Shown here: positions 15,795 through 22,218 of the stretch, piece after piece
Position numbering within the stretch: the first letter of the stretch is position 1
Layout: each line of letters starts with the position of its first letter
DNA from: Deltaproteobacteria bacterium
GTDB lineage: Bacteria; Desulfobacterota; Binatia; UBA12015
NCBI GenBank assembly: GCA_016874795.1
Contig: VGTG01000056.1
Coordinates: forward strand, 1-32,709
Direction: 5' to 3'
DNA length: 32,709 bases
The notes under the pieces: model-generated
The model's database searches: none
The model's input: the letters and a program-made list of their open reading frames with translations, nothing else
What the model was told of the DNA's origin: nothing
Position numbers and translations under genes: made by a program

Positions 15795-16325
15795 TCAACC
15801 AATCAGGAACTTCGTCAGGGCGCCGCCAACGATCAGGTAGAGCGGGTTCACGTGGCGTGCGAGGAGCACGGCCGTCGAGATCACGGCGATGGTCACCGTG
15901 AGCGTTCCCTCGAGAGCGAGCCGCGCGAGGAGCCACACCCCCGCCGCCATCAGCCCGATCGCGACCGGCGCGAACGCCTGCTGGATCGCGTCGAGCCACG
16001 GAGACGGCTCGAAGTGGTGCCAGAGCCGGTTTGCTCCGAAGGCGAGGACGCTCGACGGCACGAAGAACCCGATCAGCACCGCGAGAGCGCCGGGCCAGCC
16101 CGCGACGTGCTGCCCGATCACGGCGACCATCGTCATGTTCGGTCCGGGAGCGATCTGACCGAGGCTGTAGATCTCCTTGAACTGGTCGCCCGTGAGCCAG
16201 TGCGTCCGGTCGACGACGACGTTGTGCATCTCCGGTAGCACCGCGGATCCGCCGCCGACGGCGAGAATCGAGACGATGCTGAAGGAGGCGAGGAGGGAGA
16301 GGACCTTGTGCAGCTCGTCGCTCAC
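15795..16325 (-). CDS. Chromate transporter family protein, second half-size subunit
   Basis: 176 residues from GTG 16325, which overlaps the TGA of the preceding subunit (GTGA). It contains the CHR-domain pattern FSIVSILAVGGGSAVLPEM...WLTGDQF...LGQIAPGPNMTMVAVIGQHVAGWPGALA (written here in pieces), with the conserved GGG and PGP motifs, plus about five or six membrane segments. Short ChrA proteins of about 180-200 residues occur as adjacent pairs that function together, in place of the 400-residue fused ChrA. Chromate export is the known role of the best-studied members; the real substrate here is untested. It ends 2 bp from glnE, convergent. Confidence 0.88.
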   Translation of the reverse strand: MSDELHKVLSLLASFSIVSILAVGGGSAVLPEMHNVVVDRTHWLTGDQFKEIYSLGQIAPGPNMTMVAVIGQHVAGWPGALAVLIGFFVPSSVLAFGANRLWHHFEPSPWLDAIQQAFAPVAIGLMAAGVWLLARLALEGTLTVTIAVISTAVLLARHVNPLYLIVGGALTKFLIG

Positions 16326-16921
16326 GATGCGACTCCGGGAGTGGCGCCGCCTTCGCGACGCGGGCGATAGAGCCAGATCGCGATCCCGCCGACGACCGGG
16401 ATCACCCACGGCAGCGAGACCTTGAAGCCGGCGACCGTGATCGCCGTCACCAGCACGAGGACGAGGTCGAGCGGCTTCTGGAACTGCTTCTTCCCGAGCT
16501 GCAGCGTCGTCGCGAGCAGCAGACCGACGGCCGCCGCGGCCGCGCCGGCGAGAAGGTTGTTCATCCACGTCGTGTGGGCGTACGCCTGGTACACGGCCCC
16601 GATCGCGAGGACGAAGATCACGCCCGGAATCGTCATCGCGAGACCGCCGATGACGGCGCCGCGGCTGCCGCGCAGCTCGTCTCCGGCGAGCACGGCCATG
16701 TTGACCGCGTTCAGCCCGGGGAGCGTCTGGCTCAGCTCGAGGAGTCGCAGGAACTCCTCGTCGTTGAACCAGTGCTCGCGCGCGACGAGCGCCTGGCGCA
16801 GGTAGGCGACGACACCGCCGCCGAAGCTCGTCGCTCCGAGCACGGCGAACACGCGCGCGATCTGGAAGAGCGAAGGACGCGGCCGGGCGGAAGCGGTCGG
16901 AGCGACGGGCGCGCTACTCAC
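16322..16921 (-). CDS. Chromate transporter family protein, first half-size subunit
   Basis: 199 residues from GTG 16921. The CHR domain includes ATSFGGGVVAYLRQALV, REHWFNDEEFLRLLELSQT, then LPGLNAVNMAV in place of the usual PGPNA, and GSRGAVIGGLAMTIPG. The N-terminal helix orientation and FGG...R motif mark it as the partner of the second subunit, forming the pair equivalent to one ChrA. Its start overlaps the end of the CYTH-like gene by 8 bp (16914-16921), so three genes appear translationally coupled. No chrB-type regulator is visible. Confidence 0.88.
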   Translation of the reverse strand: MSSAPVAPTASARPRPSLFQIARVFAVLGATSFGGGVVAYLRQALVAREHWFNDEEFLRLLELSQTLPGLNAVNMAVLAGDELRGSRGAVIGGLAMTIPGVIFVLAIGAVYQAYAHTTWMNNLLAGAAAAAVGLLLATTLQLGKKQFQKPLDLVLVLVTAITVAGFKVSLPWVIPVVGGIAIWLYRPRREGGATPGVAS

Positions 16922-17916: not shown

Positions 17917-19431
17917 TCAGTTCGGAAGCGCGCCGCCCTCGATCCAGGCGCGGATCTTGGCGACCACCGCCGGGTCGAGGAGCGTGGGCGAGTTCCTCGG
18001 CATGTGCGCCAGGACCCGACCGGCGTCGTCGCGAGGCTCGCACTTCGAGAGAAGCTGGTAGAGCCAGCTCCCCTCCGGATCGCCCGGCTGGACGCGCGGC
18101 AGATCGGTCGCCGCGGTCACGACGGGCTGGTTCACGAGCGCCGCGTGCACGTCTCCCGTCAGATCGAGGTTGCCGGCCGGCGCCTGCGCGTCGTGGCACG
18201 CCTGGAAGGTGCAGCCGCCGTCGAAGACGGTCTCGCGGATGCTCGTCAGCGTCACCGGCGGCTCGGAAAGACCCGTGCTCGAGGCATCGACGCACGTGAG
18301 CGCCGGCGGGATCTCGCCCGCGTCGCTCTCCGGGACGTACAGCGCCGCCTCGATCTCCTCCTGCGACGGCATCGTCTGTGCGGCGTTCTTCGGCAGCCCG
18401 ATGCCGGTGCACGGGCCGGTATTCTTGACGATGCCCTCCTCGACACCGACGACCTGGTTCCCGTCGACCATCGAGGCGTCCATGAGCACGGCGGAGTCGG
18501 CGAAGCCGAGCATCACGCACATTTCCTGGTCGCCGATGCCCCAGCCGACGCTCTCGTCGCGCGGATTGCCGTAGCCGCAGGTGAACCGGAGACCGCGCGC
18601 GCCCGTCAGGTCGAGCGGCGGATCGAGCGCCTTTCCGTTCGCCTCGGCGTTGAAGGTGTCGAGGCCGTGGATCACCTCGCCGTCGCGCGGGCCGCCGATG
18701 ACGGACACGCGGAAGTGGTTCCCGAGGTAGTGGTAATGCGGCAGCACCCAGTAGAGCTTCAGGTCGAACGGCTTCTTCGCCGCCTGCTCGTAGACGGAAG
18801 CGAGATCACAGTCGCTGGTGAAGTGCGCCTCGCTCCGCGGCGGGATGTCCAGGTCGAGGTAGCTCAGGCGGAACGGCGCGAGGACGACCTTGACGTCCTT
18901 CGGATGGACGAGCCCGAGCGACATGCGAAGCGCGGTCGTGTGCGTCCGCGCCGTCGGGTTCAGGAGGTGGATCCCCGCGACGACCTTGTGGCGCGGCGGG
19001 ATCTTGATCACCGCGCCGGTCGCGAGCTTCTGCTCCTCGATCTGCGACTGCGTCGACTGCGCGAAGATCACCGTGCCCGCGACCGCGGAGGCGACCTCGT
19101 CGAAGTCGCGCTCGCTGCAGCGGAAGAACCCGTCCGGTCCCGGGTAGCGGTCCTCGGGAACGACGAACCAGTTCGAGTGATGGTACGCGCCGCCGTTGCT
19201 GAGCGTGACCGTGCTCACGTAGAGCGACTTCTCGTTGCCGAGCGTCCACGCGACGCACTGCGACGAGACCTCCTGGCCGGGATCGAGCGTGTACTCCCCG
19301 AAGTCGTGCGTGACGGCCGCGACCGTGGCGGGCGGTGGCGGCGGCGTCTCGTTCCCGGAGCTTCCGGAATCTCCGGAGCCTCCGCAGGCGACGAGCCAGA
19401 GCACGGGCAGCAGGGCGAATCCTCGTCGCAT
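17917..19431 (-). CDS. Lipoprotein with PHM-like copper monooxygenase domain and C-terminal cytochrome c-like domain
   Basis: 504 residues from ATG 19431, with GGAGAGG just upstream. The signal ends in lipobox LVAC (Cys16), then a Gly/Ser/Pro linker. Residues about 40-325 match the two-part copper type II ascorbate-dependent monooxygenase fold (peptidylglycine hydroxylase/dopamine hydroxylase). H84-H85 and H155 correspond to the CuH site. H232-x-H234 (LPHYHYLG) and M304 (GDQEMC) correspond to the CuM site. The C-terminal part (about 385-504) has CTFQACH (407-413), then GNLDLTG, RVQPGDPEGSWLYQLL, HMPRN and IRAWIEGGA. This is the layout of planctomycete/myxobacterial-type cytochrome c domains with a CX4CH rather than CxxCH heme site. 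It likely sits on the periplasmic or outer surface as a copper-dependent oxidase or hydroxylase; the substrate is unknown. Confidence 0.8.
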   Translation of the reverse strand: MRRGFALLPVLWLVACGGSGDSGSSGNETPPPPPATVAAVTHDFGEYTLDPGQEVSSQCVAWTLGNEKSLYVSTVTLSNGGAYHHSNWFVVPEDRYPGPDGFFRCSERDFDEVASAVAGTVIFAQSTQSQIEEQKLATGAVIKIPPRHKVVAGIHLLNPTARTHTTALRMSLGLVHPKDVKVVLAPFRLSYLDLDIPPRSEAHFTSDCDLASVYEQAAKKPFDLKLYWVLPHYHYLGNHFRVSVIGGPRDGEVIHGLDTFNAEANGKALDPPLDLTGARGLRFTCGYGNPRDESVGWGIGDQEMCVMLGFADSAVLMDASMVDGNQVVGVEEGIVKNTGPCTGIGLPKNAAQTMPSQEEIEAALYVPESDAGEIPPALTCVDASSTGLSEPPVTLTSIRETVFDGGCTFQACHDAQAPAGNLDLTGDVHAALVNQPVVTAATDLPRVQPGDPEGSWLYQLLSKCEPRDDAGRVLAHMPRNSPTLLDPAVVAKIRAWIEGGALPN

Positions 19432-19564: not shown

Positions 19565-19873
19565 TCAGGCGACTCGCTGCGTCGAGTCCGCCGAGACCAA
19601 CCGTGCGACGCGCTCGAGGGCGGCCGCGAGCTCGCGGATGCCGACCGGCTTCCGCAGGAAGTCGTCCATGCCCGCCTGGAGGCAGACGTCGCGGTCCTCC
19701 TCGAGGGCGTTCGCGGTCATCGCGACGATGCGCGGTTGCCGGAGGCTCGTGGTGGCGCGGATCCGCTTGGTCGCCTCGATGCCGTCGACGTCCGGCATCT
19801 GGACGTCCATCAAGACCACGTCGTAGGGCACTCGAGTCACGGCCAGGATCGCCTCCGCGCCGTTGGAGGCGCG
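19565..19873 (-). CDS. Sensor kinase C-terminal piece (end of second receiver domain)
   Basis: In the shifted frame the second receiver continues as [10 protein letters not shown], then [15 protein letters not shown] with its phosphoacceptor Asp, the conserved Thr/Ala region IVAMTANAL and Lys in FLRKPV, ending at TGA 19565. It has no start of its own with a ribosome-binding site. It is almost certainly the 3' end of the same gene. Confidence 0.65.
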
Positions 19874-20883
19874 ACGTCGGCGATGTAGCCCATCCGCTCG
19901 AGCATCTTGAGCGCGACCTTCTGGTTGATGTGGTTGTCCTCGGCGAGGAGGATGCGCATCGGAAGGCGCTGGCCGAGCGACGAGTCGATCGGCTTGGACT
20001 CCGCGCGCTCGCGTCCCACGGAAGCGTCTCCGCCGAGGAGCTGCGCGAGAGCGGCCCGCAGGCGGTCGGGATGCGCCGGCTTCGTGAGGATCGCACCGAA
20101 CAGTGCCGGCGCGTCGCCCTCTGCGAGGCCGCGCGTCTCCTCCGCTCCGACGGAGGAGAGGAGGATCATCGGGAGCCGTCGTCCGGGCCGCGTCTTGCGG
20201 ATCTGGCGCGCGAGCTCGATTCCGTCGACCTCGGGCATGCAGAGATCGAGGATCGCGACGTCGAAGTGCTCCTTCGCCTCGATGCGGGTGAGAGCCTGCG
20301 CCGGCGTCGCCACCGTGCGGGGATCGAGCCCCCAGTTCGACGCCTGCCGGGTCAAGACGAAGCGGTTCGTCTCGTTGTCGTCGACGATCAGGACGTGCTT
20401 CCCCGCGAGGATGCGCTGCAGCTCGGGCTCGGCGGCCTCGGTGCCCGCGCGCGTCTGGAAGGAGAAGGAGAACGTCGAGCCGCGTCCCACCTCGCTCTCG
20501 ACCGCCATCGTGCCGCCCATCAGCTCGACGAGGCGCTTCGAGATCGCGAGCCCGAGACCGGAGCCGCCGTAGCGGCGTGTGGTCGAGCTGTCGACCTGGC
20601 TGAACGCCTTGAAGAGCCGGCCGAGCCGCTCCGCCGGGATCCCGATCCCGGTGTCGCGCACCGCGATGCGGATCTCGTGGAGCCCGCCTTCGCCGCATGG
20701 CTCGGCCTCGATGCGGACCGTCACCTCGCCTTCGTGCGTGAACTTGAGCGCGTTCGAGAGCAGGTTCATCAGCACTTGACGGAGGCGCGTGACGTCGCCG
20801 ACGATGCGCCGCGGGACGCCGGGGTCGATCAGCGCCGCGAGCTCGAGGTTCCCGTCGCGCGCCTTGCACGCGAGGAGCTCCAT
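19837..20883 (-). CDS. Sensor kinase middle piece (ATPase and first receiver domain)
   Basis: The frame is open from just after the amber codon (21042), but the first possible start is ATG 20883, so 348 residues if translated separately. HATPase_c motifs are complete: N box [17 protein letters not shown]1 DTGIGIP, and G2 [18 protein letters not shown]. The first receiver begins [14 protein letters not shown] and has the phosphoacceptor Asp in [12 protein letters not shown] second receiver begins [13 protein letters not shown], then runs out of frame after GYIADVA at the 19870-19873 lesion. Confidence 0.7.
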
Positions 20884-21042
20884 CGACTCCTGGACGGCGG
20901 AGACGAGATCGAACTCCTGCTCCTCGAGCTCGAGGCGGCCCGCCTCGAGCTTCGAGAAGTCGAGGATCTCGTTGATGATCGTCAGGAGCGCGTCGCCGCT
21001 CTGGCGGATCGTGCGGACGAAGTCGAGCTGCTCGTCGTTGAG

Positions 21043-22218
21043 CTAGGTGTCGAGAAGGAGCCCGGTCATGCCGATCACGCCGTTCATCGGCGTGCGGATC
21101 TCGTGGCTCATCGTCGCGAGGAAATCGCTCTTTGCGCGCGTCGCATCGAGCGCCTGATCGCGCGCCGTCGAGAGCGCTTGCGCTTGCTGCTCGAGGTCCT
21201 TCGCCTGGCGCGCGACGTGGTCGCGCGATTCCTCGAGCTCGTGCGCGTACGCGCGGAGCTCCGTCTCCGCGAACACCTGATCGGTCGCGTCCCGGAGCGC
21301 GGACTGGAAGCGGCGCTTCGAGCCGTCTTCGTGGATGGGCTTCGTCACCGAGTCGACCCAGGTCCAGCCGCCGTCCTTCCGCTGCGCGCGGAAGCGGGAG
21401 ACGAGGACGCCTCCCTGCCGGAGGTCATCCGTGTGCTCCATGATGTGCCGGACGTCCTCGGGGTGGGAGAGGGAGATCGTCTCGCGGCCGATCAGCTCGG
21501 CGGGTCTCCAGCCGAGGAGCCGCGTCACCGACGGGCTGACGTAGTCGATGCGGTGGTCGACCGACTGGATGACGACGTCGGTCATGTTGTCGGCGAGGAT
21601 CTGGAGCCGCGCCTGGTGCTCGCTCAAGGCGAGCTCGACCCGCTTCCGCTCGACGAGGTCGCGCTCCATCAGCCGCGAGATCCACACCGAAGCGCCGAAC
21701 GCGCAGAGGATCGAGACGACGGTGTTGGTCGTCGCCACCTCCGGTGCGGGCGCCATCAGCACGTACTCCGTGACCAGCGCCACCGACGTGATGCCGACGA
21801 GGATCAGCTGGGCACGAAGGCCCCAGGGGAAGAAGATCGAGGCGCCGAGCGTGACGACGGTCTGGATGTAGGCGCTCGTCGTGAACTCGTGCGTCAGGAC
21901 GGCGATCGCCGCCATCACGATGCACGGGATGCTCGTCATCGCGGCGCTCGCGAGCGAAGCGGTGCTCCAGCTCTTCGATCCGAGGCGACCCGCGGTGACG
22001 AAGACCGCGAGGTAGAACGGAAGCGCGGCCAGCTTCACGAAAGCGAGAAGACTCGCGTAGGGGAGCTCGAAGACGACGTCGGTGACGATGCTCCCCGCGA
22101 GAGCGATCGCCGCGAAGCAGAAGAGGAATCGGACGCGCCGAATCAGGATCGGGAGAAGCTCGGCGTGAAGTACGTCCGTCACGCGATCCACCGGCATCGG
22201 CTCCTTCGCCTCCCGCAT
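21043..22218 (-). CDS. Sensor kinase N-terminal piece (membrane, PAS, HisKA)
   Basis: 391 residues from ATG 22218 to the amber codon; ATG 22197, with AAGGAG close upstream, is an alternative start. About residues 30-180 contain roughly six hydrophobic segments, a MASE-like membrane sensor. A PAS domain follows ([20 protein letters not shown]...LLGW, about 210-320, given in part) with a PAC-like tail ([11 protein letters not shown]). A coiled-coil linker leads to HisKA with the phosphoacceptor His372 in [11 protein letters not shown]. Ending here, the product would have the phosphorylatable His but no ATP-binding domain. Confidence 0.8.

Follow-up and report, generated by a model that had tools for sequence, protein, structure and literature searches.

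A lipid-anchored bacterial protein of the PHM/DBH superfamily carries a C-terminal c-type cytochrome domain

Peptidylglycine alpha-hydroxylating monooxygenase (PHM) and dopamine beta-hydroxylase (DBH) are two-copper enzymes that produce amidated hormones and noradrenaline, respectively. Their catalytic cycle needs two electrons, which are supplied by ascorbate (PMC4846438, PMC6123673). The two copper sites lie about 11 Å apart in the open form and 4-5 Å apart in the closed form of DBH (PMC4846438, PMC6123673). How these sites receive and share electrons is still debated. Here, we asked whether a bacterial protein could combine such a dicopper core with an electron donor on the same chain. The protein is encoded in the window, by which we mean the whole 32,709-nucleotide stretch of DNA that was analyzed. 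The coding sequence at positions 17917-19431 (minus strand, as all features of this gene) starts with ATG and yields a product of 504 amino acids. A signal peptide with the lipobox LVAC (residues 13-16, positions 19384..19431) was recognized from the sequence, with C16 as the lipidation site, and resembles the lipoboxes of many homologues. It is followed by the PHM/DBH-like dicopper core (residues 34-342, positions 18406..19332), delimited by VIA-align and by hhalign to bacterial Cu2_monoox_C relatives, and by a C-terminal c-type cytochrome domain (residues 391-502, positions 17926..18261), delimited by an AlphaFold2 domain model and VIA-align.

The first-pass annotation had claimed a full set of dicopper ligands together with a cytochrome c-like domain, and both were confirmed. 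All six ligand residues were found where they had been placed. By conservation and profile alignments, H84-H85 (19177..19182) and H155 (18967..18969) are assigned to CuH, while H232-Y-H234 (18730..18738) and M304 (18520..18522) are assigned to CuM. The motif CTFQACH corresponds to C407-TFQA-C412-H413 (18193..18213), a CX4CH heme attachment site, and M477-P478 is present in the same domain. Searches of Pfam and NCBIfam gave no direct match for the protein, and such proteins therefore remain unannotated. It does not reach the curated cut-off of Pfam Cu2_monoox_C (PF03712) and has no match there, and nine of its 81 relatives match this family at E ≤ 0.1 (best 3e-5). Searches of the PDB with phmmer and hmmsearch, started from the protein and from the profile of its family, returned nothing usable. 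The link to the PHM superfamily was reached only via intermediate relatives and structure.

Conservation was analyzed at two depths. The protein was aligned with 10 full-length orthologues drawn from its genus, family and class; H84, H85, H155, H232, H234 and M304 were kept without exception, as were CX4CH and M477 in these 11 near orthologues. A family scan that included a single genome for each species yielded 78 loci, most of them from Myxococcota (Nannocystis, Enhygromyxa, Plesiocystis, Polyangia, Kofleriaceae) and some from Binatia and other metagenome-assembled genomes. The resulting alignment of 82 sequences, 55 with the C-terminal domain and 27 without, shows no substitution at any of the six ligands. 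Because GDQEMCV and HHSNWFVV served as search patterns, members with M304 or H84-H85 were favored to some extent, but neither pattern covers H155, H232 or H234. Six core cysteines (59, 105, 208, 285, 305 and 341) are likewise invariant in the 82 sequences. Identity within the family reaches down to 35%, with the metal ligands strictly conserved throughout. Since all 82 relatives, long and short, keep the ligands in full, and the near orthologues keep CX4CH and M477, the pattern is not due to chance. In four orthologues (L049, L050, L052, L053), the signal peptide is separated from the copper core by a dockerin-like pair of EF hands (DCNGDCDITISEL...DMNGDQSA) and not by a proline-rich linker.

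An AlphaFold2 model of the full protein, built with 81 sequences, had a mean pLDDT of 90.5 and a pTM of 0.87; around the CX4CH loop the pLDDT was only 54-65. The first 30 PDB matches in Foldseek were all PHM or DBH, with a best E value of 8e-14 (1sdw). VIA-align gave Z 23.4 to human DBH (4zel_A; 299 residues, 3.4 Å, model range 34-349) and Z 23.4 to PHM (6ala_C; 269 residues, 3.0 Å, model range 34-342). Open PHM structures scored about 19-20 and the first unrelated fold about 8. Matches to PNGase F and viral jelly rolls at Z 7-8 were taken as generic beta-sandwich similarity. Both methods thus recovered two linked beta-sandwich domains of the PHM fold. The model resembles the closed form, because the two best matches are closed-conformation structures; this conformation is represented by DBH chain A and the H108A-PHM-citrate complex (PMC6123673).

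The ligands were placed in register by two profile alignments. The family profile aligned to the bacterial Cu2_monoox_C relatives with an hhalign probability of 99.8 (E 1.7e-29), and these relatives in turn gave E 1.9e-13 against rat PHM, where HH, H, HxH and M fell into the same columns. Thus H84, H85 and H155 correspond to H107, H108 and H172 of PHM, and H232, H234 and M304 to H242, H244 and M314. The three histidines of CuH and the two histidines and one methionine of CuM are therefore all in place. At the level of fold and ligand register, the structural check of the earlier copper-site proposal came out in its favor, with the fold given by the model and the ligand positions by the profiles.

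The protein is a member of the PHM/DBH superfamily, but it is not a peptide-amidating PHM. In PHM, R240, N316 and Y318 bind the carboxylate of the peptide substrate. These residues align with L230, V306 and L308 of our protein. L230 is found in 76 of the 82 sequences and V306 in 74, and position 308 is occupied by leucine or alanine only. We conclude from the loss of the peptide-binding residues that the protein is no peptide amidator.

The C-terminal domain was analyzed separately. Folded alone, it gave an AlphaFold2 pLDDT of 88.5. Foldseek found no significant match for the isolated domain. In VIA-align against the PDB the three entries listed at Z ≥ 2 were all c-type cytochromes, namely FoxE (Z 6.5, 105 residues), MtoD (2.6) and cyt cH (2.2), and no non-cytochrome fold was listed at that level. 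FoxE was again the best sequence-profile match in the PDB, at E 0.12. The planctomycete-type PSCyt1 family (PF07635) was matched by 21 of 81 members at E ≤ 0.1 (best 1.2e-4); the protein itself had no match and the Pfam cut-off was not reached. The copy of the domain in P0004, a related protein of the same genome, scored E 3.4e-6 with an NCBIfam diheme cytochrome model, far under the cut-off. Both cysteines and M477-P478 are invariant over 54 aligned domains, and CX4CH is present in 53 of 54 intact fused members. Three PF01578 loci for cytochrome c assembly are present in the genome. The C-terminal domain is hence a mono-heme c-type cytochrome module, as had been proposed, and the invariant M477 (18001..18003) is probably the distal (sixth) heme ligand. 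The one exception to the heme motif is a Paraliomyxa protein (L086; L086:7078-7449), in which CSFSSCP (CX4CP) retains both cysteines and the distal methionine and the proximal histidine is changed to proline.

We consider it likely that the protein is exported, anchored by lipid, and acts as a copper monooxygenase of the PHM/DBH superfamily that brings its own electron donor. The reaction cycle proposed here is borrowed by analogy from PHM and DBH. The heme would be reduced one electron at a time by a carrier in the periplasm or outer membrane and would in turn reduce CuH, the job done by ascorbate in the animal enzymes. With oxygen activated at CuM, the enzyme would then hydroxylate a C-H bond in its substrate. 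The substrate would be small, non-peptide and probably hydrophobic. The first-pass annotation had arrived at a similar picture. Its fold, ligands and cytochrome domain held up; the electron feed from heme to copper is still inferred, and its view of the heme spacing as anomalous did not hold.

A less probable explanation starts from the same core, as a real PHM-like monooxygenase, but treats the heme domain as a generic module, serving for docking or as a wire to outer-membrane partners, with small reductants reducing the copper directly. The existence of short forms fits this explanation. In a tree of the core, the 27 short forms without heme domain make up one clade (support 98/97), and three heme-bearing proteins (L093-L095) are its probable sisters with weaker support (80/94). 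On these sequences the simplest reading would be a single loss of the heme domain, with separate gains as the alternative. Since the 27 short relatives keep the core without the domain, the domain is not essential to the copper core. No separate cytochrome gene was seen beside the short forms in the loci inspected. Against a merely generic module speaks a core residue that tracks the heme domain: H176 (18904..18906) is found in every one of the 54 heme-bearing cores, L093-L095 among them, and in none of the 27 short forms. Likewise, F260 is invariant in the same 54 cores and occurs in four of the short forms. Both residues are candidates for a docking surface or an electron path, H176 being a candidate contact to the heme domain or electron-transfer residue. 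Common ancestry alone could account for part of this pattern.

The distribution of the module in the genome bears on the same question. A profile search of the window's genome with the heme module gave 27 matches at E ≤ 0.01. The module is present on other proteins as well, for example an FG-GAP protein, as expected for a generic module, but at least 14 of the best 20 matches are on PHM-like proteins. All but one of these best 20 of the 27 carry CX4CH. The spacing that had been called non-standard is thus the norm for the module in this genome, and the idea that it marks a special site was dropped.

The other PHM-like carriers of the module that came to light in this way have the opposite domain order. 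P0004 (L044) has an N-terminal heme domain in front of a Cu2_monoox_C core. At least 13 further lipoproteins of the genome (L128-L136, L138-L140, L144 and the partial L141), of roughly 580-680 amino acids, have an N-terminal CX4CH followed by HH...H(AFN)...HxH...EM, with the motifs SHH, SHAFN, SHTHKRG and NEM. Counting P0004, the genome encodes no fewer than 14 additional heme-dicopper proteins whose heme domain is N-terminal, and Pfam misses nearly all of them. An alignment of 11 paralogues showed no variation in the heme motif, the Met-Pro pair, HH, H and HxH; ten of the sequences extend as far as EM, and all ten have it. A profile of the paralogue core alone matched the Cu2_monoox_C relatives at E 1.3e-21 and the family of our protein at E 4e-11. 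Of 148 genomes of the class, 42 have the N-terminal-heme type, often with eight or more copies per genome, a count that is a lower bound as eight or so candidates were scored in each. The C-terminal type of the window's protein was found in 11 of the 148. In the Cu2_monoox_C relatives L044, L039 (P0003) and L040-L043 the CuM methionine is changed to histidine (NEHCN), which would be compatible with an all-His CuM site. Tandem duplicates of the heme-dicopper gene were observed in Nannocystis species and Paraliomyxa (L072, L074, L075, L076, L077, L063).

The fusion of heme and dicopper core in both domain orders argues that the two work together. The case for a heme that feeds electrons to copper is strengthened by this recurrence in opposite order and by the core residues tied to the heme domain. 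The presence of more than a dozen cousins built of the same two parts in one genome suggests that the heme may replace ascorbate (vitamin C) as electron source.

Electron flow in the reverse direction appears improbable. Here, the copper sites would draw electrons from a substrate or a metal ion and reduce the heme with them, and the protein would be no monooxygenase but would work in extracellular electron transfer as an oxidase or dehydrogenase. FoxE, which the heme domain matches best in structure, is indeed a cytochrome of iron oxidation. This match, however, reflects the cytochrome fold only and is silent on function, and the copper ligands are precisely those of the oxygen-activating PHM and DBH, the CuM methionine included. 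That catalysis was lost and a copper-binding or structural lipoprotein retains the fold is very unlikely; the missing evidence for a substrate or operon and the loss of the PHM peptide-binding residues would agree with it, but a relic would not keep all metal ligands strictly conserved across so diverse a family.

Four observations count against the favored reading of a monooxygenase with a built-in donor: the short heme-less forms, the loss of the heme histidine in L086, the low pLDDT at the CX4CH loop and the lack of a conserved operon. Inspection of flanking genes revealed no conserved neighbors beyond the genus Nannocystis and one group of four loci. A shared operon was therefore given up as a clue to the substrate, as the flanking genes give no steady signal. 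Within the window, a hybrid histidine kinase gene at 19565-22218 (minus strand) is split over three overlapping frames (PAS/HisKA, HATPase-REC and REC), which suggests frameshifts by assembly error or decay. Two adjacent ORFs lie at 15795-16921 (minus strand). The first (15795-16568) matches the Pfam chromate transporter, and the second (16322-16921, minus strand) looks like the other half of such a transporter.

In the open-access literature searched, no report of cytochrome-PHM fusions was found, and the expanded heme-dicopper architecture is unreported there. The Binatota genome paper presents these bacteria as methylotrophic and alkane-degrading, with copper monooxygenases in the membrane; PHM, DBH and ascorbate are all absent from the text of that paper. 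We give about an even chance that this is the first PHM/DBH-type monooxygenase in which a covalently tethered cytochrome c, and not ascorbate, provides both electrons, with about 15 paralogues in one genome and both domain orders. If a natural enzyme carries on its own chain a one-electron donor that is visible by spectroscopy, each electron could be tracked in real time. With this family, a large group of exported copper oxygenases that has escaped annotation also comes to light in uncultured lineages and in myxobacteria, and catalysts for C-H hydroxylation that work without ascorbate might be found among them.

Compared with known systems, the protein has the two-domain fold of rat PHM (1phm, 1sdw, 6ala) across residues 34-342, all six of its copper ligands align with those of PHM, and C285 and C305 fall where PHM has cysteines near the CuM methionine. 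In contrast to PHM, to which it is about 16% identical, it has leucine, valine and leucine in place of the carboxylate-binding residues and carries a lipid anchor and a c-type heme domain without a lyase domain. DBH (4zel, closed chain A) is alike in fold and ligand types (PMC4846438), but it has DOMON and dimerization domains and uses ascorbate, whereas our protein has the C-terminal cytochrome. The bacterial Cu2_monoox_C proteins have a homologous core; P0004, which also has a CX4CH domain, differs in the N-terminal position of this domain and in a histidine (NEHC) in place of the CuM methionine. With FoxE and planctomycete-type PSCyt1 the heme domain shares the c-type cytochrome fold and the PGDP...MP...WI..GA layout. 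FoxE, a cytochrome of iron oxidation, has two hemes and CXXCH (PMC10654088), whereas the domain described here has a single heme and CX4CH.
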